Shown: positions 1-15,187 of the stretch, piece by piece
Numbering within the stretch: position 1 is the stretch's first letter
Layout: each line of letters starts with the position of its first letter
Source: Rhizobium sp. Q54
GTDB taxonomy: Bacteria > Pseudomonadota > Alphaproteobacteria > Rhizobiales > Xanthobacteraceae
Direction of reading: 5' to 3'
Length of the DNA: 64,000 nucleotides
Assembly: GCA_945861265.1 (NCBI GenBank)
Contig: CAMAUC010000009.1
Span: 1-64,000, forward strand
The notes under the pieces: generated by a model
Told to the model about the DNA's origin: nothing
Databases searched by the model: none
What the model saw: the letters and a program-made list of their open reading frames with translations, nothing else
Program-made: the position numbers and the translations under genes

Positions 1-819
1 CTCTCCCAGCCCTCGGTCTCGCTGCGGATTCGCGAACTGGAGGCCGCGCTCGCCACGGCGCTGTTCGAAAGGTCGCGAAAAGGCATGCGCCTAACCGACG
101 ATGGAACGGAGCTCATGGAGCGGGCGTTGCTTATGCTCGGCGAGGCCGAGCACATAAGAAACCTGGCTAAGTCTCAGGAGCCCGTGCGCGGCACGCTTAG
201 GATCGGGATGCCCGAAGTCTTTGCAGTGCGATGTTTGCCAGCTCTACTTGCAAATCTGTCGGCGGCGCACCCGTACCTGCGCGTGGAGATCCATATCGCC
301 ACAAGTGCAGAATTGGTGGAGGACGTGCAAGAGCGCCGGATTGACGTGGGCTTCATAACCGATCCAGTTAAAGCCCATCATTTTTACAAGGTGCCGCTCG
401 GCTATCTTGAACGCCGCTGGGTCTGCGGCTTGAAGGCGAACGTAAAGCTGCCTCTGCGAGCGGAGGAAATCAGGCAAATGCCAATCCTGACTATTCCCCC
501 ACGCGGTTCATCCGAAACCTCAACCACGCGGTGGTTTCGGAGCGGCGGCGCGGAACCTACTCGTCTGATACCGTGCAACAGCGTCTATGTGATCGTTCAG
601 CTCATTAAGCGTGGGATCGGCATCGGGATCCTGCCGTTGCCGCTAATCGCAGGCGAGAACTCTGACGGTCAACTTCGCATCCTTGAGGCGCATACGCCGG
701 TGGAAAGCTCCATGATGTATGCAGCTCACCGTCTGGAGGCGGCCAGTGCAAACATCACGGCGCTTATTCGCATGACCAAGCAGACCATAGGCGAAATCCG
801 TTTTCTTACGCCATTGTGA
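1..819 (+). CDS. LysR-family transcriptional regulator (5' end cut by window)
   Basis: The reading frame is open from base 1. Its first visible residues (LSQPSVSLRIRELEAAL, then LFERSRKGMRLT) are the second half of a LysR winged helix-turn-helix, so the start codon lies to the left of the window. The rest is the two-lobed periplasmic-binding-like effector domain. LysR proteins are usually about 300 residues, so only about 25-30 residues are missing. It converges on the NicX-like gene with about 200 bp between them, so it is not in the classical divergent arrangement; its target may be to the left. The effector is unknown. The 203 bp behind it (820-1022) hold only a weak GGTGCC/GGCACC hairpin at 903-920. 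Confidence 0.9.
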   Translation, partial: LSQPSVSLRIRELEAALATALFERSRKGMRLTDDGTELMERALLMLGEAEHIRNLAKSQEPVRGTLRIGMPEVFAVRCLPALLANLSAAHPYLRVEIHIATSAELVEDVQERRIDVGFITDPVKAHHFYKVPLGYLERRWVCGLKANVKLPLRAEEIRQMPILTIPPRGSSETSTTRWFRSGGAEPTRLIPCNSVYVIVQLIKRGIGIGILPLPLIAGENSDGQLRILEAHTPVESSMMYAAHRLEAASANITALIRMTKQTIGEIRFLTPL

Positions 820-1022
820 TGAGTGCTCGGTTCGTGAAGTCAATTTTCTGCGATTGTGGCAGCGACCATGCCAGCGGTGGCTACAGACAGGGTCCAGCCG
901 AGGTGCCGCCCCTGGCACCCATTAGCTACCGCGCTAAAACTGATAAAAAAGTGCGCAATGACCATGAGTGCAGTGTCCCGCGCCCCGCGCTTGCGGACGA
1001 CTGCTAAACAGTGGTCGGAAAG

Positions 1023-2075
1023 TCACACTAGGCGATCGAGTTGCCGCAAGAACTTGCCGTGTTCAATACGCTTGTCCCCATCGACATAAAGTGTCGGCTC
1101 GAGAATTACGCCGTCCATATGAATGTTCGAAGCGATCGTTCCGCCGACATCAACGTTGGTTCCTAGCCCAAAATGCATTGAACCCAGGATATTCTTGTCC
1201 TCGCGCTGCACGCCACGGATCGTCGCCTTCGCATTGATGCCAACAGACGCCTCGGCCGGGCACACGTATCCGTTTTCGTCGGCGTTCGCCTCGAGATACT
1301 GCCGGAGTTTAAATGCGGACGTACCGCCTTCGATCCGGGAGATGCGGCCTTGCTCAATGGTGAGTTCGATCGGTTCCTTCAGAAGGCCGAGCTGATGCAT
1401 ACAGAGGTCGATTACCAGCTTGCCGTTCGCGCTGTATTCGACCGGACAAATGTTGAGTTCGCCATTGGGATACAAGAATCGAAAGAGCGACGACTTCCGG
1501 TTGCTGGTCTTGGACAGGTGATTGACCTTGTACGGGGTAAAGTCATCGGCTGGTAGTTTCGGAGGGTAAATGCGGCCTTCTACCGAATAGGTCAGATCGG
1601 TGCCGAACTTTGAAGTAACGCGGCACATTTTGGCATCAACGCCGAGAATGTTCATGCCGACGTAATGATGGCGGATCGCCATTTCACGCTGATTTTCGGT
1701 GACAGCGCCGGACTGGAACATCTCCAGCGTCATGCCGCCGTCCATGCAGATCACCGGAATCCCCGCGACCTGCGCCTTTATGCTGGCGGGAGCGTGCAAC
1801 ATTCCAGTCGAGGCGATGAGGACAACCAAATCGGCCTGCATCATCGCATTGCATACGGGCGTCGGTGGATCGTAATAGTCGGCCGGACGAGCGTCGAAGA
1901 TTGACAACGCCGCGTCGGCGCCGATCTCGGTCAGCGTGCTCATGATGGCCTGCCAAACCCGGGGGTCGTGCGCAAAGTCGGTGACCACAAGCACCTTCAT
2001 GCCCTTCGTGACATTTGTCAGGAATGGAGCGCGCAGATAGGTGAGGTCGCCGGTAATCAAAGATGCCTGGTTCAT
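1023..2075 (-). CDS. NicX/aminopeptidase M29-like metalloenzyme
   Basis: This 350-residue protein resembles the family that joins M29 aminopeptidase-type proteins with 2,5-dihydroxypyridine 5,6-dioxygenase (NicX), which has the same length. A conserved His-x-Asp (IHMDG, about residues 318-322) and an upstream His in GSMHFGLGTN sit near the C-terminus. NicX uses a His-x-Asp pair close to this position to bind Fe(II), so a ring-cleaving or hydrolytic metal site is plausible, but not every NicX ligand could be matched. There is no signal peptide, so it is probably cytosolic. It is last in a minus-strand run after the GntR gene, with its own operator 25 bp upstream of the ATG. Cleavage of a product of the imported compound is inferred; family certainty is moderate and the reaction unknown. 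Confidence 0.75.
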   Translation of the reverse strand: MNQASLITGDLTYLRAPFLTNVTKGMKVLVVTDFAHDPRVWQAIMSTLTEIGADAALSIFDARPADYYDPPTPVCNAMMQADLVVLIASTGMLHAPASIKAQVAGIPVICMDGGMTLEMFQSGAVTENQREMAIRHHYVGMNILGVDAKMCRVTSKFGTDLTYSVEGRIYPPKLPADDFTPYKVNHLSKTSNRKSSLFRFLYPNGELNICPVEYSANGKLVIDLCMHQLGLLKEPIELTIEQGRISRIEGGTSAFKLRQYLEANADENGYVCPAEASVGINAKATIRGVQREDKNILGSMHFGLGTNVDVGGTIASNIHMDGVILEPTLYVDGDKRIEHGKFLRQLDRLV

Positions 2076-2100
2076 GGTGGGTGCCCCGCAATTTCAATAA

Positions 2101-2115
2101 TTGATCAAATATCAA
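2101..2115. promoter_or_regulatory. Putative GntR operator upstream of the NicX-like gene
   Basis: TTGATCAAATATCAA is an interrupted palindrome, TTGAT-N5-ATCAA, 25 bp before the ATG of the NicX-like gene. The same 15-bp motif occurs in inverse orientation at 6955-6969, in front of the divergent importer and hyuA operons. Sites with short A/T-rich arms spaced like this are usual for FCD-type GntR regulators, and such a regulator is encoded next door (2231-2893). That it binds here is inferred. Confidence 0.6.
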
Positions 2116-2230
2116 ATCTAATACCGCCCGGATTTATGCTTGTCCAGCGACGGCAGTATTGGTGGTGAGGTATTAGCCCGAACTATCGGCACTGGCGACA
2201 CGTCGCCTGACCGCGCGATGACTATTACGC

Positions 2231-2893
2231 TTAAGGCTTGTCAATCTCACTGTTCCAGCCTTTCAAGGTAGTCCGCCGGTGCGCCCTAGCTGCGTCTTCA
2301 ACCTGCGCTGTCGAACGATCCTTCAAGGCCTTCAGGATGGCTTCATGTTCTTTGGTCGCCTTGTCGATGCGGCTGGGGTTTAGATCGAAGATCGAGCGCG
2401 ATCGTGTCCTCCAGACTTTGTTCCAAAGATCGTCAATTTGCGATTTGAGAAATTCGTTCGGACATGGCGCGTAAAGCGCCGCGTGAAATTGCCGATTGAT
2501 CTCGCTGTACCTTGCTGGAGTGCGTGCCGCGCGCATCACGTCGATTAGCTTTTCGATTCTTTTAATACTGAGGTCGTCGTGATATGGTACAGATTCCACG
2601 ACGGCGAGCACCTCAAGGTAAGTCCGTGTTGCAATGATCTCGACCACGCGCTCAATAGTAAGATCCGTTACCATCGCGCCGCGGTGATTTTCAGACTGCA
2701 CCAGTCCTTCCAATTGCAACATCCGGAGAGCTTCGCGGACCGGCATGTCGCTGGTCTTCAAGCGCCGGGACAATTCGCGCAACCGCAGGCGTTGACCAGG
2801 TTTTACGTCGCCGTTGAGAATTTCCCGCTTGATGACCTGATAAGCAAAATGAGATTTGGTCGACGGGTCGCTGATTTTTGTAGATGCAGCCAT
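2231..2893 (-). CDS. GntR-family transcriptional regulator, FadR/FCD subgroup
   Basis: 220 residues. The N-terminal winged helix contains PGQRLRLRELSRRL and PVREALRMLQLEGLV, the standard GntR recognition region (about residues 15-80). The C-terminal helical FCD domain carries the usual metal-ligand histidines (RQFHAAL, KEHEAIL, AAHRRT), which in this family bind a metal and a carboxylate effector. It follows the importer ATPase gene by 55 bp on the same strand and precedes the NicX-like gene, so it is probably co-transcribed with the importer. Control of the surrounding catabolic genes through the TTGAT-N5-ATCAA sites is the likely role. Its effector is probably the imported compound or an acidic intermediate; this is not shown by the sequence. 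Confidence 0.9.
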   Translation of the reverse strand: MAASTKISDPSTKSHFAYQVIKREILNGDVKPGQRLRLRELSRRLKTSDMPVREALRMLQLEGLVQSENHRGAMVTDLTIERVVEIIATRTYLEVLAVVESVPYHDDLSIKRIEKLIDVMRAARTPARYSEINRQFHAALYAPCPNEFLKSQIDDLWNKVWRTRSRSIFDLNPSRIDKATKEHEAILKALKDRSTAQVEDAARAHRRTTLKGWNSEIDKP

Positions 2894-2948
2894 CTAAAAT
2901 CCAAATCCCTGAAAGATTGAGGCCGAGTGTAGGTAACCCATTGTTCGT

Positions 2949-4028
2949 CTATTTGCCCTTGCCAAGGATTCGCAAGTCTTCGGGCAAAATCTTGATCCAC
3001 ACTTTAGTGCCGGCAGGCCAATCGCGCGCCGGGCTGACTTGCGCTCGCAAGCGTAGCTCTCCCAGACGCACATAAACATCGGCGCTATTGCCCAGGAATA
3101 TTACCTCATCAATTTCGGCAGAAAACGCGTTCGCGCCATCGAACGGTTTTGCGGAAATGGCGAGAAATTCTGGCCGACAAAGCAAGTCGACGAGATCACC
3201 GGCGCTATGTCCACCGCCCACAACGCTAATTTCGTAGCCGCCGGCAATAGCGATAAGCGTTGCGTCGTTGGTCGATCGCACGACTTTTCCAGAGATTGAG
3301 TTGGTGAGACCGATGAAATCCGCCGCAAACAGCGAGGCAGGTCGGTTGTAGATCTCTTTGGGCGGGCCGATTTGCTCAATCTTTCCGGCATTCATCAACA
3401 CGATGCGGTCCGCCACCACCATGGCCTCTTCTTGATCGTGGGTGACGTAAATCGAGGTGATGCCGAGGCGCTTTTGGATCTGTCGGAGTTCGAAACGCAT
3501 GTGTTCGCGCAATTTGGCGTCCAAATTGCTTAACGGTTCATCAAACAGCAGAACGCGAGGCTCGAGAACAACCGCGCGCGCTACAGCTACGCGTTGCTGC
3601 TGGCCCCCGCTCAATTTATGGATTTCCCGCTCGGCGAACCCGCTCAATCCGACCAGATCTAGTCCGGCGCGGACACGTGTGTCGATATCGCTGGCGGAAA
3701 GACCGCGTTTGAGTTTGAGGCCGAAGGCTATGTTCTCTTTCACAGTCATATGCGGCCAGATCGCATAGGATTGGAACACCATGCCGATAGCGCGCCGCTC
3801 AGGTGGCACACTTAGGCCGGGCGCTGAGACGATTTTATCGCCGATCAAAATTTCGCCGCTCGAGACATCTTCCAAGCCGGCAATGCAGCGCAAGGTCGTC
3901 GTCTTGCCGCAGCCGCTAGGCCCCAGCAAAACAAGGAATTCACCTTCGCTAACGTCAAGGTCGATGCCGTCGACCACGGTCGTCTTATCAAACCGCTTAG
4001 TGAGAGACTTCAGGCGAACGCTGCTCAT
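2949..4028 (-). CDS. ABC importer ATP-binding protein (PotA/FbpC type)
   Basis: 359 residues with all ABC ATPase signatures: Walker A GPSGCGKTTT, Q-loop region, signature LSGGQQQRVA, Walker B VLLFDEPLSNLD and the switch histidine in YVTHDQEEA. The C-terminal roughly 110 residues form the regulatory TOBE-type extension seen in polyamine, Fe3+ and putrescine importers. The gene starts 12 bp after the permease stop and clearly belongs to the same operon (binding protein, permease, ATPase, GntR). It energises uptake at the inner membrane. The substrate class cannot be read from the ATPase. Confidence 0.95.
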   Translation of the reverse strand: MSSVRLKSLTKRFDKTTVVDGIDLDVSEGEFLVLLGPSGCGKTTTLRCIAGLEDVSSGEILIGDKIVSAPGLSVPPERRAIGMVFQSYAIWPHMTVKENIAFGLKLKRGLSASDIDTRVRAGLDLVGLSGFAEREIHKLSGGQQQRVAVARAVVLEPRVLLFDEPLSNLDAKLREHMRFELRQIQKRLGITSIYVTHDQEEAMVVADRIVLMNAGKIEQIGPPKEIYNRPASLFAADFIGLTNSISGKVVRSTNDATLIAIAGGYEISVVGGGHSAGDLVDLLCRPEFLAISAKPFDGANAFSAEIDEVIFLGNSADVYVRLGELRLRAQVSPARDWPAGTKVWIKILPEDLRILGKGK

Positions 4029-4040
4029 GGTCTTTTCTTC

Positions 4041-5714
4041 TTACTGTCCAAAGGCCGCTTCAAGCCGCGCGCGGAATAACATGCGTGTGATCAGCACAAT
4101 TCCGATCATGATGGCGGTCTGAATAATGCCGATCGCGGCCGCGTATTGGTAGTCGCCGTTGTCCATGTAGTGCCAAGTCAGCACCGACAGAATGTGGCTG
4201 TTGGAGCTGTAAAGTAGGATTGAAGCGGAGAGCTCCTTGATACTGTTCAGCATCACAAAGAACAAAATGGCGATCAGGGTTGGCTTGACGAGCGGGGCGG
4301 CAATTGATGCGATGGCACGCGTCGGAGTAGCGCCGCACATCCTTGCGCTCTCTTCAAGCTCGGGATGCAACTGGAGCAGGCCGGATCGGCTGACGATTAC
4401 GCCGTAGGGCAGCATTTTCGCAACGTGCGCGAGCAGCAAAATCCAGATCGTCCCATAAAGGGGAGTTTGGAGATAGGTCCACAGCAGGCCCAGGCCATAG
4501 ACGAGGCCCGGAACGGCAACTGGTAGGATGCTTAGAAAGGCGATGCTTTTTGTGACCAGACTTGGTCTGCGCAAATCCATAAGGCTGATAACAAAGCCAA
4601 GCAGGACGCAAATGATGCCCGTCAGGACCGCGAGAAAGATCGTGTTCCAAAGCGCTGCCATCATGTTCTGGGTCGTAAAGAATGCGACGTAGTGCTTGGT
4701 CGTGAAAAGGTCGGGTGTGATCATGCTGGCGCTGAAGCGCATGAACGATGCGATCAACAGGGCGCCAAATGGCAGAATGTCCGCCAGAAGCACGTAAAGC
4801 AAAATGATTCCGACTGCGAGCCAAGAGTACTTGCCGAGCGCAATTGGGCGTCCCTGAAAACCCTTGCCGCCGACGGTCACAAACCGGCTGGATACTTGCG
4901 TCAACCGATTCTGCAGCCAGACGCCGGCGATCGTTACAAACAGCAGGAGACATCCGCCGGCCGCGGCATGCGCGCGATGAACGGGGATCGCCGTAGAATC
5001 CTCGAAGATCTTCCATGGGAGCGTCGTGAATCCGACCGTGGCGCCGATGATTCCAGGCACCGTGTACATTTCAACGCTGAGGACGAAAACAAGCAGGCCG
5101 GACGCGAGAATGGCCGGCAGGCACATCGGCAAAGTGATCTTGCGCAAGCCTGTGATAGCCGTCGCGCCACTCATGCGGGCCGCTTCTTCGAGCGACGTGT
5201 TCATGGAACGCAGGCTGCCGACCGTGAACAGGTAAACGAACGGACAGAAAAACAAGAACATAATGAATACGACGCCGCCGTAGCTCCAAATGTTCACCAG
5301 CGGCTTCGGATTTTCGATAAAGACGCCAAGAATTTTGCGCAGAATATGATTGATGAATCCGGTTTTCTCGGAGCCGAGCGTGATCCACGCCATTAGGCCG
5401 GTGAATGGCGACAGATAAAGCGGCAGCGTGATCATTGTGTCCCAAAGCGACTTGTGGGACAGATCCGTCCGCGCCACGAGCAAGGCAAGAACAACGCCAA
5501 CAAGAAGCGAAAGTGCCGTCACCAGCGCGGCAAGGATCAGAGCGTTGGCGAGATAGCCTAGGTATTCGGCGGAGGCATAGACGGCCTTAACGGCATCGAG
5601 ACTGCGCTCCTCGGACAGACCGACCCGGGTTTCCTTATAAAACTGTGCATCAAAAACATAGACAAGCGGGATGACGGCAAGGGCGAGAACGACCGCCGTC
5701 AGGAACAATGCCAA
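4041..5714 (-). CDS. ABC importer permease, fused double-domain (FbpB type)
   Basis: 557 residues with about twelve hydrophobic segments and two ATPase-coupling EAA loops: one around EEAARMSGATAITGLRKI in the first half and one around EESARMCGATPTRAIASI in the second. It is therefore a tandem fusion of two permease domains, as in Fe3+-type (FbpB) importers, so one polypeptide makes the whole channel. The start is a TTG. There is no ATG or GTG upstream in frame before the stop codon of the binding-protein gene, which lies in the same frame 21 codons earlier. The use of TTG is therefore probable but weak, and its ribosome-binding site is poor. Confidence 0.92.
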   Translation of the reverse strand: MALFLTAVVLALAVIPLVYVFDAQFYKETRVGLSEERSLDAVKAVYASAEYLGYLANALILAALVTALSLLVGVVLALLVARTDLSHKSLWDTMITLPLYLSPFTGLMAWITLGSEKTGFINHILRKILGVFIENPKPLVNIWSYGGVVFIMFLFFCPFVYLFTVGSLRSMNTSLEEAARMSGATAITGLRKITLPMCLPAILASGLLVFVLSVEMYTVPGIIGATVGFTTLPWKIFEDSTAIPVHRAHAAAGGCLLLFVTIAGVWLQNRLTQVSSRFVTVGGKGFQGRPIALGKYSWLAVGIILLYVLLADILPFGALLIASFMRFSASMITPDLFTTKHYVAFFTTQNMMAALWNTIFLAVLTGIICVLLGFVISLMDLRRPSLVTKSIAFLSILPVAVPGLVYGLGLLWTYLQTPLYGTIWILLLAHVAKMLPYGVIVSRSGLLQLHPELEESARMCGATPTRAIASIAAPLVKPTLIAILFFVMLNSIKELSASILLYSSNSHILSVLTWHYMDNGDYQYAAAIGIIQTAIMIGIVLITRMLFRARLEAAFGQ

Positions 5715-5777
5715 AATGTTGCGACGAATTCCGCTAATTTGAAATGCCCGCCTACCGTTTTGATCAAGTGAGGCGCG

Positions 5778-6860
5778 CTAGTTGCGCCCTCGCTTGATGA
5801 TTGCCGCCCATTCGTCCATGTCTTTGTGATAATTATTACCCCAGCGCTCCCAGTCGACGGGATAAATTTCCTTCGGTTGAGCATACCACTTCTCTTGGGC
5901 ATAGACGCGGACATCCGGAATGCCCTGCAGGGTGGAATAGCCGCCATAGATGCGCTCCATCGCCAGCGCGCCTTTTTCGCTCATCGTCCAATTCAAGAAG
6001 AGACGGGCGGCGTTGGGATGGGTTGAATATTTAGAAATTCCCTGCCAAGAGTTGCCAAAGTCCGGCGTCGGCTTCGGGAAGATCCAGCGAATGGGCGCGC
6101 CTTCCATCTGTTTGATCGCAGCCGCCGATTCCCAGCCCCACATCGTAAAGTCCTGTTCACCAGCAACGACGCGATCGAGCGTGACGAGCACTTCGGCATA
6201 GACGGCGGGCTGCTGAGCAACGACCTTGCGCAAGAATTCAGGTCCGAAGCGATCCTTGAATTTTGGATCCATGAACATGTGGACCGGCGCGTAACACACG
6301 CCGCACTTCATCGAGGACACCGAGAAGCGGCCCTTGAAGCGCGGATCGAGCACGGCTTCCCACCCGCTCTCGAGTAGTTTCACTTCCTCGGGCGTGACTT
6401 TATTAACGTTGTAAACTATTGCATTTGTCGAAGTGTACTGCGCATAAGCGTAGTCTTTGATGCGGTAACGCTCAGGAATTTTGTCGAAGGTCGGCAATTT
6501 CCACTGCGCGATGTGGCCAAGATCAACCAGCGACACCATGCTGGGATAGTCAGTGCTTTGCAGGACGTCCACGAGGTACTTCTTGGCGTTGGTCTCGTCG
6601 AGGAAGCGCTGATACTGTGCGACGCCTACGAGCCGCAACGTTTCAACCTTGATGCCCGGATATACTTTCTGAAATTCGGCCGCGATGGCGTTCATGCCAT
6701 CGAGCGGACCACCGACGTACCAGACAACGGTGCCTTCAGCTTTGGCCGCCTCATAAAGCTTGGCTTCGTCCGAAGTGTAGGACGAGGCCTGCTGTGCAGC
6801 AACGGGCGGGGCGGCAAGCAGGGCGAGGAGGGACAGAACGGCGGCAGTGCGCGAGGTCAT
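5778..6860 (-). CDS. ABC importer periplasmic substrate-binding protein
   Basis: 360 residues. A clean signal peptide (hydrophobic core LSLLALLAAPP, likely cut after VAAQ) is followed by an extracellular solute-binding domain of the AfuA/FbpA-PotD kind (EAAKAEGTVVWYVGG near the mature N-terminus, FPKPTPDFGNSWQG in lobe 2). It is first in the minus-strand importer operon and is read divergently from hyuA, with 153 bp between them. I could not place the double-tyrosine iron site of true ferric-binding proteins. Given the neighbours, an organic ligand such as a cyclic amide or carboxylate is more likely than iron; this is inference. Confidence 0.92.
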   Translation of the reverse strand: MTSRTAAVLSLLALLAAPPVAAQQASSYTSDEAKLYEAAKAEGTVVWYVGGPLDGMNAIAAEFQKVYPGIKVETLRLVGVAQYQRFLDETNAKKYLVDVLQSTDYPSMVSLVDLGHIAQWKLPTFDKIPERYRIKDYAYAQYTSTNAIVYNVNKVTPEEVKLLESGWEAVLDPRFKGRFSVSSMKCGVCYAPVHMFMDPKFKDRFGPEFLRKVVAQQPAVYAEVLVTLDRVVAGEQDFTMWGWESAAAIKQMEGAPIRWIFPKPTPDFGNSWQGISKYSTHPNAARLFLNWTMSEKGALAMERIYGGYSTLQGIPDVRVYAQEKWYAQPKEIYPVDWERWGNNYHKDMDEWAAIIKRGRN

Positions 6861-6954
6861 CGGAAGTTCCTTCTAAACCGGCTTGTTTAGCGAGACTCTC
6901 TGAAAATAATAGATATCAAAACCTCGACAATATCCAGCCTTTAGCACCGTAATT

Positions 6955-6969
6955 TTGATATTTGATCAA
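6955..6969. promoter_or_regulatory. Putative GntR operator in the divergent importer/hyuA promoter
   Basis: TTGATATTTGATCAA repeats the motif found at 2101-2115 (inverse orientation). It also overlaps a perfect 16-bp palindrome, ATATTTGATCAAATAT, at 6958-6973. It lies 44 bp before the hyuA ATG and 94 bp before the start of the binding-protein gene, so a protein bound here could control both directions. A partial element ATATCAAA occurs at 6913-6920 on the importer side. Confidence 0.6.
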
Positions 6970-7013
6970 ATATTCGCTTTTCTTTCGTCTATTCAATCAG
7001 CTAAGATTGCGTA

Positions 7014-9113
7014 ATGAGCGGTCCAGCTGCGCTGTCCTTTCGCATTGGCGTTGATGTCGGAGGTACCTTTACCGACATCGTAGTTCTCGACGGCTCAAGC
7101 CGTACCCACGTCTGCAAATCCCCATCGAATCCATCTGACCCAGCGGCAGGTGTCCTCGCAGCCGTCGATTTGGCGGCGGAGCAGATCGGTACTACGACTG
7201 CCGAATTGCTACGGAATTGCACAGTCTTTGTACACGGCTCGACGATCGCCACCAACACCCTGCTTGAGAAGAAGGGTGCGGTGGTCGGCCTGCTGACAAC
7301 CCAAGGCTTCCGCGACAGTTTAGAAGTTCGTCGTTGCATCAAGGCCAATGTCTGGGATCACCGCGCGCCGGTGCCTGAAGTGCTCGTGCCGCGGTATCGG
7401 CGCCTGCCAATTCCCGAGCGTATGGATCATCTCGGCAACGTGCTCACTCCTCTCGATGAATCCGCTGTGCGTGAAACCGTAAAGACGCTACGCGCTGAGG
7501 GCGTCGAAAGCCTCGCCATCTGCTTCTTGCACAGCTACGCGAATTCAGCGCACGAAAGGCGTGCGCGGGACATCGTTCGCGAGCTATGGCCGAATATCTC
7601 GATTTCTTGCTCATCCGATGTTGCGCCGATCATCGGCGAGTACGAGCGCAGCTCGACCACAGTGGTAAACGCTTACGTTGCGCCGCGCGTCATTCCGTAT
7701 CTACGTGCGCTCGATAAGGCTCTTGCCGAGCGCGGCCTGTTGAGCGGCCTGTTGCTGATACAGAGCAATGGCGGCGGAGTTTCGGTTAACGAACTTGCCG
7801 ACCGGCCTATCCAGCTCATTCTTTCGGGACAGGCAGCCGGTGTCGGCGCCATTCGGTTTTTTGCTAATGACATCAAAACACCGAACCTTGTGGCGATCGA
7901 GGTCGGCGGCACCAGCTGCGATGTCACGCTGTCGGTCGAAGGCGTGACGGCAATGACTGACCAGCTCGAGATCGATGGATATCACCTCGCTATGTCTGCG
8001 GTAGACATTCACACGGTAGGAGCGGGCGGCGGCACGATCGCGCATGTTGATCCGGCCGGGCTTCTGCATGCCGGGCCGAAGGGTGCGGGCGCACGGCCGG
8101 GCCCGGCAAGCTACGGCCGCGGCGGCGATAAGCCGACAGTGACAGATGCGCAGCTTGTGCTGGGGCGGCTTAAGCCCGGGCCTTATGCGGGCGGCGTCAT
8201 TAATCTCGACATCGCGCGTGCGCGCGACGCGATTGAAACTCATGTCGCCAAGCCGCTGGGCTTAAGCGTCGAAGAGGCGGCATCTGGAATTCTCCGCCTG
8301 GTCGATCAGCATATGAACAACGCGGTTGAACGTGTCACTACTCAACGTGGCTATAATCCGCGGGAATTCACGCTCATCGCCGCCGGCGGCGCCGGGCCAT
8401 TGCACGGGGTCTCGGTCGCGCGGGCACTGGGCTGTCCAGCAGTCTACATCCCGCGTCTCGCGGGTGTGTTTTGTGCGTTTGGCATGTGCAACACCGACTT
8501 ACGCCACGACTATCAGCGACCTTGGTTCCGCAATCTCGATGATCCCAACTACGAGCACGCAGCCACAGCTGCTTTTGCGGATATGGAAGCGGAGGCTGCG
8601 CCGGTATTGGCGCGGGAAGGTTTCTCAGGCGCAAATGTCGAGAACGTCCGTGGGCTCGATTTGCGCTATTACGGTCAGCAGTGGTTGATCAAGGTCGAGC
8701 CGAAAACACTCGCGCCCGCTGATGTCAGAGCTGCGTTCGAGGCGGAGCACCGGCGGCTATACGGTTATGTGCAGCCGAATGGGCTGATCGAGATCGTCAA
8801 TCTGCGGATTGCTGCGTTCGGGCACATTTCGATCGCCGAAATAAAGGTCGCCGGACGCAATGGCTCAAAGCCGAATGTAATCGATCGCCGCCCGATCTGG
8901 ATTGATGCCGCTACTGGGACAAAAGAGGTGCCTATCTATGATGGGCGCACCTTGCGCGCGCAGGACAAGATTATTGGTCCGGCAGTGATCGACGAGAGCA
9001 CGACCACCTTGTTTATCGGCCCCGGCGATGAACTCACTGTTACTGAGGCCGAGAACTATCTGATCCGGTTGGCCTCCAAGGCAGGCAGCGGAGGTGCGCA
9101 CCATGTCCACTGA
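7014..9113 (+). CDS. hyuA: Hydantoinase/oxoprolinase subunit A (HyuA family)
   Basis: 699 residues. The N-terminal GVDVGGTFTDIVVLDG is the phosphate-binding loop of the actin-like hydantoinase/oxoprolinase fold. The second conserved segment EVGGTSCDVTLS (about residue 290) and GGAGPLHG (about residue 460) complete the ATPase domains, and the last 180 residues form the C-terminal domain. The family hydrolyses cyclic amides such as N-methylhydantoin or 5-oxoproline with ATP, or carboxylates ketones when a third subunit is present. No acetone-carboxylase gamma subunit is seen, so ring opening of a cyclic amide is favoured. It overlaps hyuB by 11 bp, so the two are translated together. The exact substrate is unknown. 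Confidence 0.93.
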   Translation: MSGPAALSFRIGVDVGGTFTDIVVLDGSSRTHVCKSPSNPSDPAAGVLAAVDLAAEQIGTTTAELLRNCTVFVHGSTIATNTLLEKKGAVVGLLTTQGFRDSLEVRRCIKANVWDHRAPVPEVLVPRYRRLPIPERMDHLGNVLTPLDESAVRETVKTLRAEGVESLAICFLHSYANSAHERRARDIVRELWPNISISCSSDVAPIIGEYERSSTTVVNAYVAPRVIPYLRALDKALAERGLLSGLLLIQSNGGGVSVNELADRPIQLILSGQAAGVGAIRFFANDIKTPNLVAIEVGGTSCDVTLSVEGVTAMTDQLEIDGYHLAMSAVDIHTVGAGGGTIAHVDPAGLLHAGPKGAGARPGPASYGRGGDKPTVTDAQLVLGRLKPGPYAGGVINLDIARARDAIETHVAKPLGLSVEEAASGILRLVDQHMNNAVERVTTQRGYNPREFTLIAAGGAGPLHGVSVARALGCPAVYIPRLAGVFCAFGMCNTDLRHDYQRPWFRNLDDPNYEHAATAAFADMEAEAAPVLAREGFSGANVENVRGLDLRYYGQQWLIKVEPKTLAPADVRAAFEAEHRRLYGYVQPNGLIEIVNLRIAAFGHISIAEIKVAGRNGSKPNVIDRRPIWIDAATGTKEVPIYDGRTLRAQDKIIGPAVIDESTTTLFIGPGDELTVTEAENYLIRLASKAGSGGAHHVH

Positions 9114-10884
9114 GCAAGCCGCAACCAAAAAGACCGTCGTTCCGCGCACGTCAAAAAATAGCACGCGCGATCCGATTACCCTGGCGATCGTACAAAAGCA
9201 GCTCGACCACATCACGCATCAGATGGGTTGGGTGATGACGCGGACATCGCGCAGTCCGGTATTTAGTGAGAGCCACGATTTTTCCTGCTTCCTCGGTACT
9301 AAGAGCGGCGAAGTCGCAGCGCAGGCGGACGGTTTGCCTATTCACAGCGGCGCCGGCGGCTTCGCGCTCAAGGCGCTAATTAAGTCTTATTCTGGTGACA
9401 TGGCGGAAGGTGACATCTTTATTCTGAGTGATCCTTACGTTGCGGGCGGCAACCACCTGCCAGACTGGACAATCATCAAGCCGGTGTTCATCGACGGTAT
9501 CCTCGAAGGCTTCGCGGCCAATCGCGCCCACCAATCGGATATCGGAGGTGGCGCTGCCGGTACCTACAATCCGGAAGCGACAGAAATTTTCCATGAGGGA
9601 ATTCGCCTTCCCGTCATGAAGCTCGTCGAGCGCGACAAGCTGCGCAAGGATTTGTGGCAACTGCTCCTGCTCAATTCGCGCACGCCCGAACTACTTGAAG
9701 GTGATCTGGGCGCTATGCTCGGTTCGGTCAATATCGGTGCGGAGCGCATGTTGCGCGTGATGAAGGAAGATCTCGGCAATGGTCGCGGCATCGACTACCT
9801 CGAAGGCCTGCTAGACTACGGAGAAATGCGCCTGCGCGGCGAGATCGCCAAGCTGCCAGACGGCAGCTGGCACGGCGAAGACGGCAGCGATACAGATTGC
9901 TTCGTCGATGTCGATGTTCCGGTTCGGGTCAAGGCGACGGTCGCCGGGGACGAACTCATTTTCGACTTCACGGGCAGTGCGCCGCAGGTCAAAGGTTTCA
10001 AGAATAGCTCGCTCGCCAATACGCATTCGGCGGTCTATGTCGCCGTCGCGGCCTTCTTTGATGCCTCTATCCCTCGCAACGGCGGTACGTTCCGGCCGGT
10101 CTGTATCATCGCGCCCGAGGGCACGGTCGTGAACGCGTTGCCTCCGGCGCCGATGACGATGAATACCATCTATCCAGCAACCGAAATCGTATACGCCTGC
10201 TGGAAAGCGCTGGCTCAGGTTTTACCGCCAAGTGCCTGCGCCGGTTGGGGCAAGAGCGCTTACGGCATCAGTTCGGGCCGCAAGGCGGATGGACGAGCCT
10301 TCGTCATGTATCATTGGCACGCGACGCCGGCGGGGGGCGCCGTTAACGGTCGCGATGGCTATGCGCAAGGCGGCAATCTCCCATCGCTCGGCGGCCGCAC
10401 GATGCCGAATGTGGAAACGTACGAGCGGCTTTATCCTTGCCGCATCCACAAACACGAATTGCGGCGCGACTCCGCTGGGCCAGGCGAATATCGCGGTGGT
10501 TCGAGCGTGAATTATGAGGCGCAGATTCTCGTGCCCAGCACGCACGCGGTAAGGGCGGAAGGGCTCAAACGCACCTCGGGTTACGGCGTGCTCGGTGGCG
10601 GAGCGGGAGCGAAGGGCTCGATCGTGATGCAAGAAGAGGGCGGGATGCCGCAGCGGCCGCCGCAATATATCATTCAGCGTGTCGGGCCGATGCGCGTATG
10701 GATTGAAGGTACAGCGGGCGGGGGATGGGGCGATCCCAAAAAGCGCGATCCAATGCGTGTTCTTCGTGATGTGCGCGACGAGATCGTCAGCGTACAAAGC
10801 GCGCGCGACCTCTATGGTGTTGTGATCGATCACACCGGCCGTAACATTGACATCGCCGCGACAATTGCTCTGCGCGGCGGGTGA
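9103..10884 (+). CDS. hyuB: Hydantoinase/oxoprolinase subunit B (HyuB family)
   Basis: 593 residues from the ATG at 9103, which is preceded by GGAGG at 9090-9094 with 8 bp spacing; an in-frame GTG at 9094 overlaps that site and is less likely. The family signature is present: DPITLAIVQKQLDHI at the N-terminus, DPYVAGGNHLPDW around residue 110, GSAPQVKGFKNSS in the middle, and RRDSAGPGEYRGG and GTAGGGWGDP towards the C-terminus. HyuB partners HyuA in ATP-dependent opening of cyclic amides. The start lies inside the hyuA 3' end. The MmgE/PrpD gene follows after 23 bp, so a three-gene operon is likely. Confidence 0.93.
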   Translation: MSTEQAATKKTVVPRTSKNSTRDPITLAIVQKQLDHITHQMGWVMTRTSRSPVFSESHDFSCFLGTKSGEVAAQADGLPIHSGAGGFALKALIKSYSGDMAEGDIFILSDPYVAGGNHLPDWTIIKPVFIDGILEGFAANRAHQSDIGGGAAGTYNPEATEIFHEGIRLPVMKLVERDKLRKDLWQLLLLNSRTPELLEGDLGAMLGSVNIGAERMLRVMKEDLGNGRGIDYLEGLLDYGEMRLRGEIAKLPDGSWHGEDGSDTDCFVDVDVPVRVKATVAGDELIFDFTGSAPQVKGFKNSSLANTHSAVYVAVAAFFDASIPRNGGTFRPVCIIAPEGTVVNALPPAPMTMNTIYPATEIVYACWKALAQVLPPSACAGWGKSAYGISSGRKADGRAFVMYHWHATPAGGAVNGRDGYAQGGNLPSLGGRTMPNVETYERLYPCRIHKHELRRDSAGPGEYRGGSSVNYEAQILVPSTHAVRAEGLKRTSGYGVLGGGAGAKGSIVMQEEGGMPQRPPQYIIQRVGPMRVWIEGTAGGGWGDPKKRDPMRVLRDVRDEIVSVQSARDLYGVVIDHTGRNIDIAATIALRGG

Positions 10885-10907
10885 TGCGGTGAACCGCAAG
10901 GCGTAAG

Positions 10908-12269
10908 ATGACCCTGCCGTCGAGCCAAAGACTGATCGCTGACTTTGTGATCGGGGACGTGGCGATCACGTCCGAAATGCGGCAATTAGCTCGCGATGCG
11001 TTGTTCGACACGCTTGCGGTGTCGTTTGCCGGCGCGCGCGAAGCAGTCTCACGCCAAACCCTGGACTATGTCAGGCAATCCGGGGGGCGTGGCGACGCGC
11101 CATTTTGGACGTTTTCTGATACGGGAGCGGCTGAACAAGCCGCTTTGCTCAACGGCGTTGTCGCCCATGCTTTGGACTATGATGACGTAAGCCCAAGCTG
11201 GCGGGGCCACGGCAGCGCGGTGATGTTTCCTGCGATCACGGCTGTGGGTCCTAATCACTCGATCGACAATATTCTCGACGCTTATGTTGTGGGTTTTGAG
11301 GTTGGCGCGCGATTAGGGCGTGCGGTAATTGCAACTCACTACCCGCGTGGATGGCACGCCACAGCGACAATCGGGATCATCGCAGCGACGGCCGCCGTTT
11401 GCCGGCTGGTTGGCGCCAAGCGCGAGGTCATCGAGAACGGCCTTGGATTGGCGGTGGCTCAGGCCGCCGGGGTCCAGGCGAATTTCGGTACCACAGCGAA
11501 ACCGTTGCACGCGGGTTTCGCGGCTATGGGCGCAGTGCGAGCTTTGGCGCTGGCACAAGCCGGGATCGCCTCATCGAGTGCGGCGATTGATGGTCGGACG
11601 GGCTTTGCCGGTCTCTATGCCGAAAACCCCGACATCGCGAGCAAGTTTACCGACGTTGGTACGCTGCCGTTTGCGATTACAGCTGCAAAGCTGGAGCGCA
11701 AGCACTATCCGATGTGCTACGCGGCTCATCGCGCTGTTGCGGCAGTCATGCGCCTGCATGCTAAGCACACAATCGACGCTGGAAATGTTGCGTCTATTTC
11801 GGTTGAAAGCAGCAAGGGAAGCCACGACCCTCTATTAGATAGGCTGCCGAACAGCCCGGACGAAGCAAAGTTTAGTCTGGAATTTAACGTGGCCGCCGCG
11901 ATGATTGACCGCGCGATTTCGCTAAACACTTTTACAGATGCCGCCTTAACTCGCGATGACATCAGAAGCCTTGCGATGCGCACGACCATTAAGGAATTGA
12001 AATCCGACAGTGGGGTGCGCTGGTCGCGTGTGTCCGTAAAATTCAAAGACGGGTCGGAACTTGCGGAAACCGCTGAGCGGCTAGACAGTCAGTCGGGTTT
12101 TGAAACCGATCCAGTCTTTCGCGCCAAGATCGCCGATTGTTTGAAGGCTGCCGGAACATCTATGGACCCGCGCCTGCTCTACGGGGCTTTAACCCACGGA
12201 AGCCGGCCCGTCGCGTCGCTGTTTGAGCTCGACGATGTGCGTCAATTGCGAACACGCCTAACAATCTAG
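10908..12269 (+). CDS. MmgE/PrpD family protein
   Basis: 453 residues. Family hallmarks are the N-terminal helical segment ARDALFDTLAVSFAGA, the loop AHALDYDDVSPSWRGHGS, and KPLHAGFAAMGAVRALALAQAG in the middle. Members with known activity include 2-methylcitrate dehydratase (PrpD) and cis-aconitate decarboxylase; MmgE/PrpD genes are also found beside hyuAB in catabolic loci. A dehydratase or isomerase step on a carboxylic intermediate is a reasonable guess, not shown here. It is last in the hyuAB operon. There is no clear terminator behind it, and the island border begins here. Confidence 0.88.
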   Translation: MTLPSSQRLIADFVIGDVAITSEMRQLARDALFDTLAVSFAGAREAVSRQTLDYVRQSGGRGDAPFWTFSDTGAAEQAALLNGVVAHALDYDDVSPSWRGHGSAVMFPAITAVGPNHSIDNILDAYVVGFEVGARLGRAVIATHYPRGWHATATIGIIAATAAVCRLVGAKREVIENGLGLAVAQAAGVQANFGTTAKPLHAGFAAMGAVRALALAQAGIASSSAAIDGRTGFAGLYAENPDIASKFTDVGTLPFAITAAKLERKHYPMCYAAHRAVAAVMRLHAKHTIDAGNVASISVESSKGSHDPLLDRLPNSPDEAKFSLEFNVAAAMIDRAISLNTFTDAALTRDDIRSLAMRTTIKELKSDSGVRWSRVSVKFKDGSELAETAERLDSQSGFETDPVFRAKIADCLKAAGTSMDPRLLYGALTHGSRPVASLFELDDVRQLRTRLTI

Positions 12270-12359
12270 CGCTAGCCGCGTGTTTCTATCCTTGGGGGAA
12301 TTCGTTGGCGAAACCTGAGGCTAAAAACGGCTGCGTCAGCAAGAACAAAGATAGAACGG

Positions 12360-12379
12360 TTTGCTACCATTTTGCTACC
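12360..12379. repeat. Direct repeat TTTGCTACC x2, possible integrase arm sites
   Basis: TTTGCTACC occurs at 12360-12368 and again at 12371-12379, one helical turn apart (11 bp). Short direct repeats spaced by a helical turn beside a tRNA fragment are typical of arm-type sites bound by tyrosine recombinases. No integrase gene is visible in the window, so the assignment rests on context. Confidence 0.4.
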
Positions 12380-12498
12380 CAATTCGTTAGTACGGCCCGT
12401 TATCGGACATCACCACAAATTGCCACGGTATTAAAAAGTCTATAGTTTTCAATATTATACGCTACAGGTCGATACAGAACAATACGGGTACATGCGAA

Positions 12499-12537
12499 TT
12501 TCAAGACCGGTGCCTTAAACCGCTCGGCCACCCTTCC
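12499..12537 (-). pseudogene. 5' half of a broken tRNA-Ser(UGA) gene
   Basis: On the minus strand the sequence starts with the acceptor strand GGAAGGG, then TG and the D-arm GCCGAGCGGTTTAAGGC. It continues into the anticodon stem CCGGT and the loop CTTGAAA (anticodon TGA). After the loop the expected ACCGG of the stem is replaced by unrelated sequence (TTCGCATG), and no variable arm, T-arm or acceptor 3' strand follows. It cannot fold into a tRNA. A break at the anticodon loop is a known crossover position for tRNA-directed integrases, so this is most likely an attachment-site remnant. Confidence 0.7.
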
Positions 12538-12643
12538 ATTACCGATATGGCCCGGACTTGTACGGTCCGGACTTGCCGCCCGGGGGGCGGCGCTGCCCGA
12601 TATCCGGGAATCCGGGTCCAACTCGGCCTTAGTTCAATGGTCG

Positions 12644-12681
12644 AAGCCCGCCGCACTTGCAAGAGGGCTTTGCGGCGGGTT
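12644..12681. promoter_or_regulatory. Inverted repeat upstream of rlpA, with alternative pairing
   Basis: CCCGCCGC (12647-12654) pairs perfectly with GCGGCGGG (12672-12679). The overlapping AAGCCC (12644-12649) can instead pair with GGGCTT (12665-12670). The two foldings exclude each other, as in an attenuator-type leader, but no U-tract follows on either strand. A GC-rich hairpin GCCGCCC-GGG-GGGCGGC lies just before it (12575-12591). Confidence 0.35.
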
Positions 12682-12820
12682 ATCCGGACCGTTCAGGGCA
12701 GAGTCGCGCCATCCAAAGCCTGAGCGGAACCAATTGTTTACCACGAACAAAGTGCTGTGGTTCACGCCACCTCCGGGGCGGGCTAGGCTGGCGGATCGAC
12801 AACCGGGGATCGACATCTTA

Positions 12821-13792
12821 ATGGGCGGAGTGGGGGACAGCGGCCGTTTCGGTCTGCTCGCGCGCCTTTTGGCTGTCGCGGCGGGGTCGTTGCTGCTTGC
12901 CAACTGCTCCGGCTCGACCTCCAAGCTCGATCCGAAATACGGCGTCTCGGCCAGCGCCCGCGTCGTCGAGCCGGGCGCGCCGGTGCCCAAAGGCGGCGGC
13001 GTCTATCGCGTCGGCAAGCCCTATCAGGTCGCCGGCCGCACTTACGTTCCCGAAGAAGACCCCAGCTACAAAGCCGAGGGCTTCGCGTCCTTTTACGCCG
13101 ACAATTTCCATGGCCGCTTCACCGCCAATGGCGAAGTCTTCGACATGAATTCGATCACGGCGGCGCATCCGACCATGCCGCTGCCGTCCTATGCGCGGGT
13201 CACCAATCTGCGTAACAAGAAGTCGATCATCGTGCGCGTCAACGACCGCGGGCCCTATGTCGGCAACCGAGTCATCGATCTGTCGGTGCGGACCGCCAAG
13301 CTGCTGGATTTCTACGGGCAGGGCCTCGCCAAGGTTAAAGTCGAATATGTCGGCCGCGCGCCTTTAGCCGGTTCCGACGACCGCAAACTGATGGCCACAC
13401 TGCGCGATGGCAATTCGCCGGCGAATGACAGAACGAACGACAAGGTGCTGGTCGCCTCCAACCAGGCCTTTGCGCCGGCTTATTTCGATTCACGGCCGAT
13501 GACCGAGGTACCGCGCCCGCCGGAACGTCCGTTCCGCGTCGATGGCGCGCCGTCCGGCGGCGCGCAAAGCATGGCCAGTGTCGAACCGGAAGCCGAAGAG
13601 ATCGCGGCCGGGCCGGTGGCGCGGCCGCGCGTCGCGGATGCGATGGGCCGCGCGCCGATGGTGGACGCAAGGCCTTTGGCCCAGCAGGCCGCCAACTTGC
13701 CAACAAGCCCTTCGGTTTCGCCGGTATCGGCCTTCGCGCCGAGGCGCTATGATGCGCCGGTGGGATTCATGAGCGGTCGCGGCCTTTACTGA
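12821..13792 (+). CDS. rlpA: RlpA-type septal ring lytic transglycosylase, lipoprotein
   Basis: 323 residues from the ATG at 12821. This start gives a good lipoprotein signal (LLARLLAVAAGSLLLANC); an in-frame ATG at 12734 would add 29 poorly suited residues. The lipobox-like LLANC has Asn before the Cys, which is unusual. The double-psi beta-barrel of RlpA spans roughly YKAEGFASFYADNFHGRFTA to VNDRGPYVGNRVIDLS. RlpA cleaves peptidoglycan strands lacking stem peptides at the septum. The long C-terminal part is Pro/Ala-rich and shows no SPOR domain, unlike the Pseudomonas enzyme. It precedes dacC, a common pairing in Hyphomicrobiales. Confidence 0.88.
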   Translation: MGGVGDSGRFGLLARLLAVAAGSLLLANCSGSTSKLDPKYGVSASARVVEPGAPVPKGGGVYRVGKPYQVAGRTYVPEEDPSYKAEGFASFYADNFHGRFTANGEVFDMNSITAAHPTMPLPSYARVTNLRNKKSIIVRVNDRGPYVGNRVIDLSVRTAKLLDFYGQGLAKVKVEYVGRAPLAGSDDRKLMATLRDGNSPANDRTNDKVLVASNQAFAPAYFDSRPMTEVPRPPERPFRVDGAPSGGAQSMASVEPEAEEIAAGPVARPRVADAMGRAPMVDARPLAQQAANLPTSPSVSPVSAFAPRRYDAPVGFMSGRGLY

Positions 13793-13887
13793 GCCGCAAT
13801 TTCCGGTCACAGCGCCGCCTTGCCGGTCTGCGAAAGCGGTCCGCAGAAAACCGTGTGGCTTATTGGCCGGGAATGACGTTGGTAAGC

Positions 13888-15159
13888 ATGGCCATTGGCA
13901 AATATAAGTCGGGACGGCTGCTGAGCGCGCTCTTGCTGTTGGCGGGGCTTTGCCTGTCGGCGGCCCAAGGCGCGACCCCGGCGCACCGGCCGGGATCGGG
14001 TCTCGCGCACAAGCCGGCCTCCGGACTTTCCGCCAAGAAGGATGGCCCGAAAAAAGACGAGCCGCCGATCACCGCGCCGCACGCCATCCTGATCGACGCG
14101 GAGAATGGCGGCGTGCTGTTCGAGCGCGATCCCGACAAGCTGATTTTTCCGGCCAGCCTCGCCAAGCTGATGACCGCCGAATATGTCTTCAACGAATTGA
14201 AGTCCGGCCGGCTCAATCTCAAGGACGAATTCCCGGTCAGCGAGAATGCCTGGCGCAAGGGCGGCGCGCCGTCGGGCGGCTCGACCATGTTCGCGGCGCT
14301 GCATAGCCGCATCAGCGTCGACGACCTGCTGCATGGCGTGATCATCCATTCCGGCAACGATGCCTGCATCGTGCTGGCGGAAGGGATTTCCGGAAGCGAA
14401 GCGGCCTTCGCCGCCAAGATGACGCAGCGCGCCCGCGCGATCGGCCTGACCAAATCGACCTTCGCCAATTCCAACGGCCTGCCCAATCCTGGCACGCAGG
14501 TGACGACGCGCGAACTGGGCATGTTGGCGCGCCATATCATCGTCACCTATCCCGAATATTATCCGATCTACGGCCAGCGCGACTTTCTCTGGAACAAGAT
14601 CAAACAGCCGAACCGCAATCCGCTGCTGGCCATGGATATCGGTGCCGACGGCATGAAGACCGGCTTCACCCGGGAAGCCGGCTACGGCCTGGTCGGCTCG
14701 GCGTTGCAAAATGGCATTCGCCTGATCGTCGTCGTCAATGGCCTCAACACCGCCAAGGAACGCGGTGAGGAAGCCAGGAAGCTTCTGGAGTGGGGCTTCA
14801 AGAGTTTCGAGCGCCGCATTGTCTTCGCCGAAGGGCAGATCATCGGCAGCGCCAAGGTCTATGGCGGCGTCGACGGCAGCGTGCCGCTGGTCGCAGGCCG
14901 CGAGGTGCGGGTGATGATGCCGAAGAGCGGCGGCGACCGGCTGATCGCGCGCATCGTCTATAACGGCCCGGTGCCGGCGCCGGTCGAGCAGGGAACGCCG
15001 GTCGGCGTCCTCAAGGTCTGGCGCAACGACAACGTCATCCTGCAAATGCCGCTCAAGGCAGCCGAGCCGGTGGCGCGCGGCGGTTTGTCGAAACGCGCCT
15101 TCGACGCCGTCTCGGAATTGATGATCGGCCTGTTCCGCGCCGGCGCGCAGCGCCTATGA
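13888..15159 (+). CDS. dacC: D-alanyl-D-alanine carboxypeptidase (PBP5/6 type)
   Basis: 423 residues from the ATG at 13888, chosen because it gives a compact signal peptide (RLLSALLLLAGLCLSAAQGA). In-frame starts at 13855 (GTG) and 13873 (ATG) cannot be excluded. All three penicillin-binding motifs are visible: SLAK with nucleophile Ser90, SGN at about 155-157 and KTG at about 257-259. The C-terminal beta domain and a terminal amphipathic helix (AFDAVSELMIGLFRAGAQRL) would anchor it to the periplasmic face of the inner membrane. It removes the terminal D-Ala from peptidoglycan stems. tmk follows 28 bp later. dacA would be an equally valid name. Confidence 0.93.
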   Translation: MAIGKYKSGRLLSALLLLAGLCLSAAQGATPAHRPGSGLAHKPASGLSAKKDGPKKDEPPITAPHAILIDAENGGVLFERDPDKLIFPASLAKLMTAEYVFNELKSGRLNLKDEFPVSENAWRKGGAPSGGSTMFAALHSRISVDDLLHGVIIHSGNDACIVLAEGISGSEAAFAAKMTQRARAIGLTKSTFANSNGLPNPGTQVTTRELGMLARHIIVTYPEYYPIYGQRDFLWNKIKQPNRNPLLAMDIGADGMKTGFTREAGYGLVGSALQNGIRLIVVVNGLNTAKERGEEARKLLEWGFKSFERRIVFAEGQIIGSAKVYGGVDGSVPLVAGREVRVMMPKSGGDRLIARIVYNGPVPAPVEQGTPVGVLKVWRNDNVILQMPLKAAEPVARGGLSKRAFDAVSELMIGLFRAGAQRL

Positions 15160-15187
15160 TAATCGTTAAGTGCGGCCCGGAGAATTG

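Follow-up and report, generated by a model that had tools for sequence, protein, structure and literature searches.

A tRNA-associated gene block of Rhizobium sp. Q54 with a private palindrome and a possible role in opine-lactam-like catabolism

The first 64 kb (hereafter the window) of contig C9 in the 133-contig, 3.75-Mb draft assembly of Rhizobium sp. Q54 open with a block of DNA at positions 1-12290 that is probably horizontally acquired cargo at one end of a genomic island. Its GC content is 57.0%, as against 63.4% for positions 12734-64000, where the lowest value among 78 segments of equal size is 61.7%. Nine genes lie within 1-12269 (Table 1). A leftward set, from 6860 down to 1023, encodes the binding protein, fused permease and ATPase of an ABC importer, a GntR/FCD regulator and a metalloenzyme; a rightward set, from 7014 to 12269 and divergent from the first, consists of hyuA, hyuB and mmgE. 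Our best reading, which is tentative, is that the block serves the catabolism of opine-lactam-like compounds, with a ring opening driven by ATP, an epimerisation and the hydrolysis of an amide. A preliminary description of this DNA had already recognised a low-GC block with an importer, a GntR/FCD regulator, a NicX/M29-like enzyme and a hyuA-hyuB-MmgE/PrpD operon, and these genes were found where it placed them. It had also called the island complete, which is not sustained: base 1, the contig edge, falls inside a LysR-type gene, the far end is unassembled, and the assembled part, to which all statements on the island refer, has no dehydrogenase or aminotransferase gene.

As judged from the encoded proteins, the likeliest class of substrate would be N-(carboxyalkyl) amino acids of an opine-lactam-like or iminodisuccinate-like kind; this class, the order of the steps and the reaction of each enzyme are what we infer. 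The compound taken up by the importer would be small, nitrogenous and carboxylated and would either contain or be able to form a lactam or cyclic amide, and HyuAB would phosphorylate and open the ring with ATP. The MmgE/PrpD protein would then shift a proton on the carbon adjacent to a carboxylate, in an epimerisation or elimination like that of iminodisuccinate epimerase, and the M29-type metalloenzyme would hydrolyse an amide bond and free the products for central metabolism. Both gene sets would be switched together through a common operator, and the island, with the cargo at one end, would have been integrated in the anticodon loop of tRNA-Ser(TGA). The gene modules themselves are of known kinds. 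It is a doubtful prospect that their combination on a mobile tRNA island (ATP-dependent lactam opening, an iminodisuccinate-epimerase-type step and an M29-type hydrolase, jointly controlled by a private operator) constitutes an undescribed pathway for natural opine-lactam-like compounds outside plant tumours. If the opine-lactam-like reading were true, the nutrient niche that such lactams provide would extend beyond the crown-gall tumours from which they are known. Substrates have yet to be tested for many hyuAB and mmgE genes, and a mobile block as compact as this, with its private operator, offers a good starting point in the search for one.

The two transcription units probably share a putative private operator, because a 16-bp palindrome is confined to two sites of the genome, before both units. 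One copy, ATATTTGATCAAATAT, lies at 6958-6973 between the divergent importer and hyuA sets, and the other, ATAATTGATCAAATAT, at 2097-2112, about 20 bp before the metalloenzyme start. They are the only such palindromes in the window at up to three mismatches, with 0.07 expected, and two were reached by one of 100 shuffles. In the whole 3.75-Mb genome, ATAWTTGATCAAWTAT with up to one mismatch is found only at these two island sites, and its reversed control does not occur at all. Both sites carry the 21-mer TTTGATATTTGATCAAWTATT in the same orientation relative to hyuA and the metalloenzyme gene (0 in 100 shuffles). The shorter word TTGATCAA occurs four times in the window, always inside the island and three times in intergenic DNA, a count reached by none of 100 shuffles; the sites are the two palindromes, one between the binding-protein and permease genes, and one inside hyuA. 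The latter, the fourth, lies at 8685-8692. Self-regulation had been proposed earlier for this island, and the island-private palindrome preceding both transcription units agrees with it. The leftward and rightward sets would thus form one regulon, with the common operator in the divergent promoter region and before the metalloenzyme gene, and the palindrome, whose centre is TTTGATCAAA, would be bound by the island's GntR protein. The symmetric LysR box has the form T-N11-A, and the even length of the palindrome misfits it, so that this identity is weakly rejected. A promoter scan returned three sites against 6.3 expected, nothing above chance.

For both HyuA and HyuB, the top matches among solved structures are the caprolactamase subunits CapA and CapB (HyuA to 6yra_A, 451 bits). 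The caprolactamase CapAB of Pseudomonas jessenii (6YRA) has in common with the island proteins the two-subunit architecture for ATP-dependent ring opening, most of the ATP motifs and the metal tetrad (PMC8453981, in part; sources so marked are cited for passages). The CapB tetrad is Asp41-His99-Asp102-His124 (PMC8453981, in part), and SHDFS, GNHLPDW and NRAHQSD of HyuB align with all four residues. HyuA keeps the first phosphate motif, GxxPGP of the adenosine/phosphate motifs and Asp302 of CapA, with one change, Asp295 to Glu. ATP-dependent ring opening by HyuAB, as put forward in the preliminary description, is supported as a prediction by these lactamase motifs, all but one residue of which are retained. 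A Glu at the Asp295 position is seen in HyuA (EVGGTSCD; 7014-9113) and in its relative in genome G346 (IEIGGTSCD; L070, 11250-13340), and could mark a functional HyuA subgroup. On the NCBIfam equivalog models of caprolactamase, HyuA scores 621.2 bits (alpha, NF050156) and HyuB 320.2 bits (beta, NF050157), so that the cut-offs of 1000 each for caprolactamase proper are not reached. Three more HyuA genes in the own genome (G000:C78 and G000:C1; L001-L003) share 30-40% identity with that of the island, and a search of genome contigs with HyuB returned five loci, one being a contig of genome G290 and four matching at 30-35% identity.

Relatives of HyuA and HyuB with 58-60% identity are encoded on Sinorhizobium, Agrobacterium and Rhizobium plasmids and in G346. 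As in the island, ABC importer genes lie near, with ATPases 39-48% identical to that of the island, but the partners there are a class III aminotransferase, GMC oxidoreductases, a fumarylacetoacetate-hydrolase-family gene and a MurR/RpiR regulator, and the stretches have no mmgE or metalloenzyme relative. The recurring cluster (L070, L065, L066, L067) consists of genes for a class III aminotransferase, HyuA, HyuB, an NTF2-like protein, a GMC oxidoreductase and a fumarylacetoacetate-hydrolase-family protein. On three of the rhizobial plasmids the hyuA relative stands directly behind the class III aminotransferase gene, much as the caprolactamase genes are clustered with that of an omega-aminotransferase (PMC6061476, in part). 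This arrangement and the 621 bits on the caprolactamase alpha model would suit degradation of a simple lactam, hydantoin or cyclic imide (5-oxoproline, a caprolactam-like compound or succinimide), with MmgE and the metalloenzyme in side reactions. However, the score falls well short of the equivalog cut-off, the nine assembled genes include neither an aminotransferase (the transaminase partner of CapAB) nor an aldehyde dehydrogenase, and no clear role would remain for MmgE and the metalloenzyme; we consider a simple-lactam pathway rather improbable.

The opine-lactam-like reading gives the MmgE/PrpD protein a step of its own. Its top matches among solved structures are iminodisuccinate epimerase (2HP0/2HP3; 2hp3, 224 bits) and Bacillus IRG1 (7bra, 214 bits). 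The catalytic bases of the epimerase are His99 and Tyr145 (PMC7347537), and in the alignment the island protein keeps both, from which an epimerase activity is predicted. Unlike the known epimerase, it has no C-N lyase partner family among the nine island genes, although the unassembled part could hold one. In PLSDB, 370 records have an MmgE match, all below 60% identity, with 36.6% the best of the 40 listed.

Pairs of these modules are also neighbours elsewhere. Four of 41 top binding-protein matches have an MmgE match within 10 kb, where 0.24 would be expected (P ~1e-4); the 41 are the best 45 minus four of the own genome, compared with 149 listed MmgE matches outside it, and the count is made among the matches listed, in which related genomes do not give independent observations. 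Permease and ATPase homologues are also present in three of these four loci and a GntR gene in two, with HyuA and HyuB in none of the four. HyuA and HyuB accompany MmgE in 5 of 11 fetched top MmgE loci, directly beside it in three, two of which come from one genus; some of this proximity may be chance, because HyuAB is multicopy in this group. A metalloenzyme relative with MmgE within 10 kb was seen at 3 of 12 loci read with flanks (7 plasmids and 5 genomes), namely L114, L115 and L194. The order in L115 is ornithine-cyclodeaminase family, MmgE, metalloenzyme and TRAP importer; in L194 an aspartate-dehydrogenase-family gene lies about 3 kb from the metalloenzyme relative, and in L197 (genome G071) the distance of such a relative to a GntR gene, 46% identical to that of the island, is also about 3 kb. 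No fetched locus outside the window holds the full gene set.

It could be asked whether there is a single pathway at all, or a patchwork of unrelated catabolic modules piled up at an integration hotspot. Module pairs do occur apart elsewhere, the DNA at the tRNA-Ser site differs among congeners, and bases 1000-9200 as a whole were found in one of 43 congeneric genomes, the own one. In that search, with six candidates scored per genome, a threshold of E 1e-30 was reached by 4 of the 43, namely the own genome and three in which the match covers 438-568 bp of the ATPase gene at 68-69%. On the other side, the two units have the private operator in common and are arranged divergently, and importer-MmgE, HyuAB-MmgE and metalloenzyme-MmgE neighbourhoods recur, which makes a mere patchwork unlikely. 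Independent occurrence of importer and enzymes in relatives had been named beforehand as the finding that would speak against a common pathway; it is borne out in part, the modules being separable in relatives.

The metalloenzyme is probably an M29-type amide or peptide hydrolase, as far as its residues indicate. A profile of 11 sequences matches both families, with 108 bits to NicX (7cn3) and 26-38 bits to the M29 aminopeptidases 4icq, 4icr, 2ayi and 1zjc; compared with PepS, AmpT, AmpS and NicX, the ligand set is M29-like and the overall sequence nearer to NicX. Its E206, E275, H301, H319 and D321 align with PepS residues, the set Glu, Glu, His, His, Asp being what we take to be the M29 metal ligands. 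An alignment of 22 sequences shows two main subgroups, and the window protein belongs to that with Glu206, Glu275 and His301; the NicX-type subgroup has SHxGWG and FSxGPN motifs. Three members of the former (L115, L116, L118) have His319 and Asp321 replaced. The Pfam M29 cut-off is reached by five of seven subgroup relatives scanned (L114, L117, L119, L120 and L194; 30.8-55.1 bits) and missed by L115 (23.7 bits) and L193 (no match). Relatives are found in 21 of 288 sampled genomes of the class beyond the own one, the best full matches being 30-36% identical, and the single-sequence structure prediction has a mean pLDDT of 35.8. The iron ligands of NicX are His265, Ser302, His318 and Asp320 (PMC7910607, in part). 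A pyridine or N-heterocycle pathway with this protein as ring-cleaving iron dioxygenase, a role suggested by NicX as the best solved relative by sequence and by two kept iron ligands (His318 and Asp320), is highly improbable, since Glu275 and Gly303 replace His265 and Ser302, the M29 set is present, none of three NicX-group relatives (L011, L013, L015) matches M29, and a pyridine-pathway hydroxylase is missing among the nine genes. Hence the label "NicX-like" can hide an M29-type hydrolase. Of the earlier proposal, an uptake and degradation pathway for a cyclic imide, hydantoin or N-heterocycle, the foreign origin, the tRNA target, uptake with degradation and self-regulation hold up, whereas completeness and pyridine-ring cleavage by the NicX-like protein are not supported.

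The closest described counterpart by gene content, the only level at which it was compared, is the succinamopine region of pTiEU6, where a hydantoinase A/B pair, a putrescine-type ABC importer, LysR genes and mmgE occur together, as they do in the island (PMC6733357, in part). According to its authors, the pair could act on the lactams of succinamopine and succinopine and open them (PMC6733357, in part). The combination, which the preliminary description did not recognise as a described pathway, is thus not entirely without precedent. In the open-access literature searched, hydantoinase and MmgE appear together only in that paper. Each system also has a separate amide hydrolase, an asparaginase in pTiEU6 and, by our assignment, the M29-type enzyme in the island. 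The pTiEU6 region has opine dehydrogenase genes and the asparaginase and adjoins the T-region, none of which is seen in the assembled part of the island; the island, unlike pTiEU6, adds the GntR/FCD regulator and the metalloenzyme and sits at a tRNA gene. A lactamase/hydantoinase has further been linked to the rideopine lactam (PMC8554961, in part), and a related group of Ti plasmids is described as having no such genes in its presumed rideopine region (PMC10410297, in part). The island may work like the pTiEU6 and rideopine sets; we do not file it as an opine region, because its assembled part has no genes for opine dehydrogenases.

Several observations weigh against the opine-lactam-like reading. 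No opine oxidase or dehydrogenase, C-N lyase or transaminase is encoded among the nine assembled genes (1-12290), though the unassembled part could hold them. The modules are separable, as importer with MmgE in loci lacking HyuAB, as HyuAB with MmgE beside other or no ABC ATPases, and as HyuAB without MmgE. HyuA has the Glu noted above at an ATP-site residue of CapA, and the metalloenzyme, besides its profile being nearer to NicX than to the M29 structures, scores 12.5 bits on Pfam M29 (PF02073) against a cut-off of 27. The palindrome does not fit the TKGT/ACMA consensus of FadR-subfamily GntR sites (PMC4494728, in part), and no shared palindrome site was found in the relatives' clusters compared.

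The block ends at a broken tRNA gene, as had been noted before: 12537..12499 on the minus strand correspond to nucleotides 1-39 of tRNA-Ser(TGA), with one mismatch to an intact gene of G290 (ARAGORN found no tRNA in the window). A search with positions 12300-13100 matched 38 of 43 congeneric genomes, and an intact tRNA-Ser(TGA) lies within the fetched flanks (about 1.5 kb) at 13 of 30 congener loci scanned, while others may have it further off. The 39-nt half is cut at the identical base in the own genome, G290, G300 and G297; in G622 it lies at a contig edge, and in G312 the sequence breaks off at nucleotide 44 of the tRNA. In G301 nothing interrupts the site, which runs from the oxidoreductase gene through an intact tRNA to the rlpA side. 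In G290, contig C157 carries the oxidoreductase side up to an intact tRNA-Ser, followed by a tyrosine recombinase gene, and contig C167 has the rlpA side with the displaced half; the two contigs would hold opposite ends of a single insert. Next to rlpA, tRNA-Ser(TGA) thus seems to be a hotspot of integration (window 12499-12537, L112 5342-6655 and L111 5483-5521), because several congeners keep an intact tRNA near the site and one has an integrase beside it. No integrase gene is present in the assembled own part. Own contig C28 holds the oxidoreductase side and reaches 14 nt into the tRNA from its other end before it breaks off, and two DNA searches of the own assembly (best 12 of 67 and best 40 of 209 candidates scored) did not find an intact tRNA-Ser(TGA). 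Commonly described tRNA-integrating elements leave a 3' fragment of the tRNA; elements at this site seem to leave a displaced 5' half. The element may have brought its own 5' half, which is suggested because the intact gene of G290 has GAGTGG and the displaced half GAGCGG. The T form is also present in intact tRNA-Ser genes of other genomes (for example L150), so plain variation is a live alternative for this difference. We rejected an intron, or any other RNA of a known family, in the gap of the tRNA, as an Rfam scan of 1-16000 up to E 1 gave a single sub-threshold match elsewhere (E 0.38).

The hyuB-mmgE genes have probably moved, to judge from sequence identities, because a 97.6%-identical piece is found at a different tRNA and is less diverged than core genes. 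This 2,909-bp piece in G290 (window 9380-12288; the 3' part of hyuB and the whole of mmgE) adjoins an intact tRNA-Arg(TCT) and not tRNA-Ser (L069 16410-19731, contig C28 of G290); its hyuB has no start and runs into other sequence at the contig end, and mmgE is intact. Third-position identity to G290 is 96.9% for mmgE and 92.3% for the hyuB part, compared with 87.8% for rlpA, 87.6% for dacC and 82.6% for holB. HyuB at more than 90% identity is found in 2 of 36 congeneric genomes, the own included, and bases 1-1020, at the left edge, match only themselves among six genomes searched.

Table 1. Features of the island part of the window and of its junction
Feature	Position	Strand	Evidence
LysR-type regulator, 5' end cut by contig edge	1..819	+	PF03466 125 bits, PF00126 38.9 bits
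M29/NicX-superfamily metalloenzyme, probably amide/peptide hydrolase	1023..2075	-	profile matches and ligand-type residues
Operator-like 21-mer (palindrome 2097-2112)	2096..2116	-	about 20 bp upstream of metalloenzyme start
GntR/FCD regulator	2231..2893	-	PF07729 80.8 bits, PF00392 59.4 bits
ABC importer ATPase, polyamine/Fe3+/aminoethylphosphonate type	2949..4028	-	PF00005, TOBE_2
Fused two-domain ABC permease	4041..5714	-	PF00528 in two stretches
Periplasmic solute-binding protein	5778..6860	-	PF01547, PF13343
Operator-like 21-mer (perfect palindrome 6958-6973)	6954..6974	+	divergent promoter region
hyuA, ATP-dependent lactamase/hydantoinase alpha subunit	7014..9113	+	PF05378, PF01968
hyuB, metal-dependent beta subunit	9094..10884	+	PF02538 469 bits
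MmgE/PrpD-family protein	10908..12269	+	nearest solved structures iminodisuccinate epimerase and Bacillus IRG1
Conserved element end adjoining tRNA half	12354..12498	.	81-82% identity to the same junction in G300 and G297
Displaced 5' half, first 39 nt of tRNA-Ser(TGA)	12499..12537	-	comparison with intact gene

Among the importer components, the ATPase matches the PotA and PhnT2 models below their cut-offs, and the top PDB sequence match of the solute-binding protein is 7f6u, an iron-type binding protein (80 bits). Beyond the island, from 12734 onwards, lies rlpA, as indicated by profile matches, and it is followed by genes read from their translations as dacC, tmk and holB.

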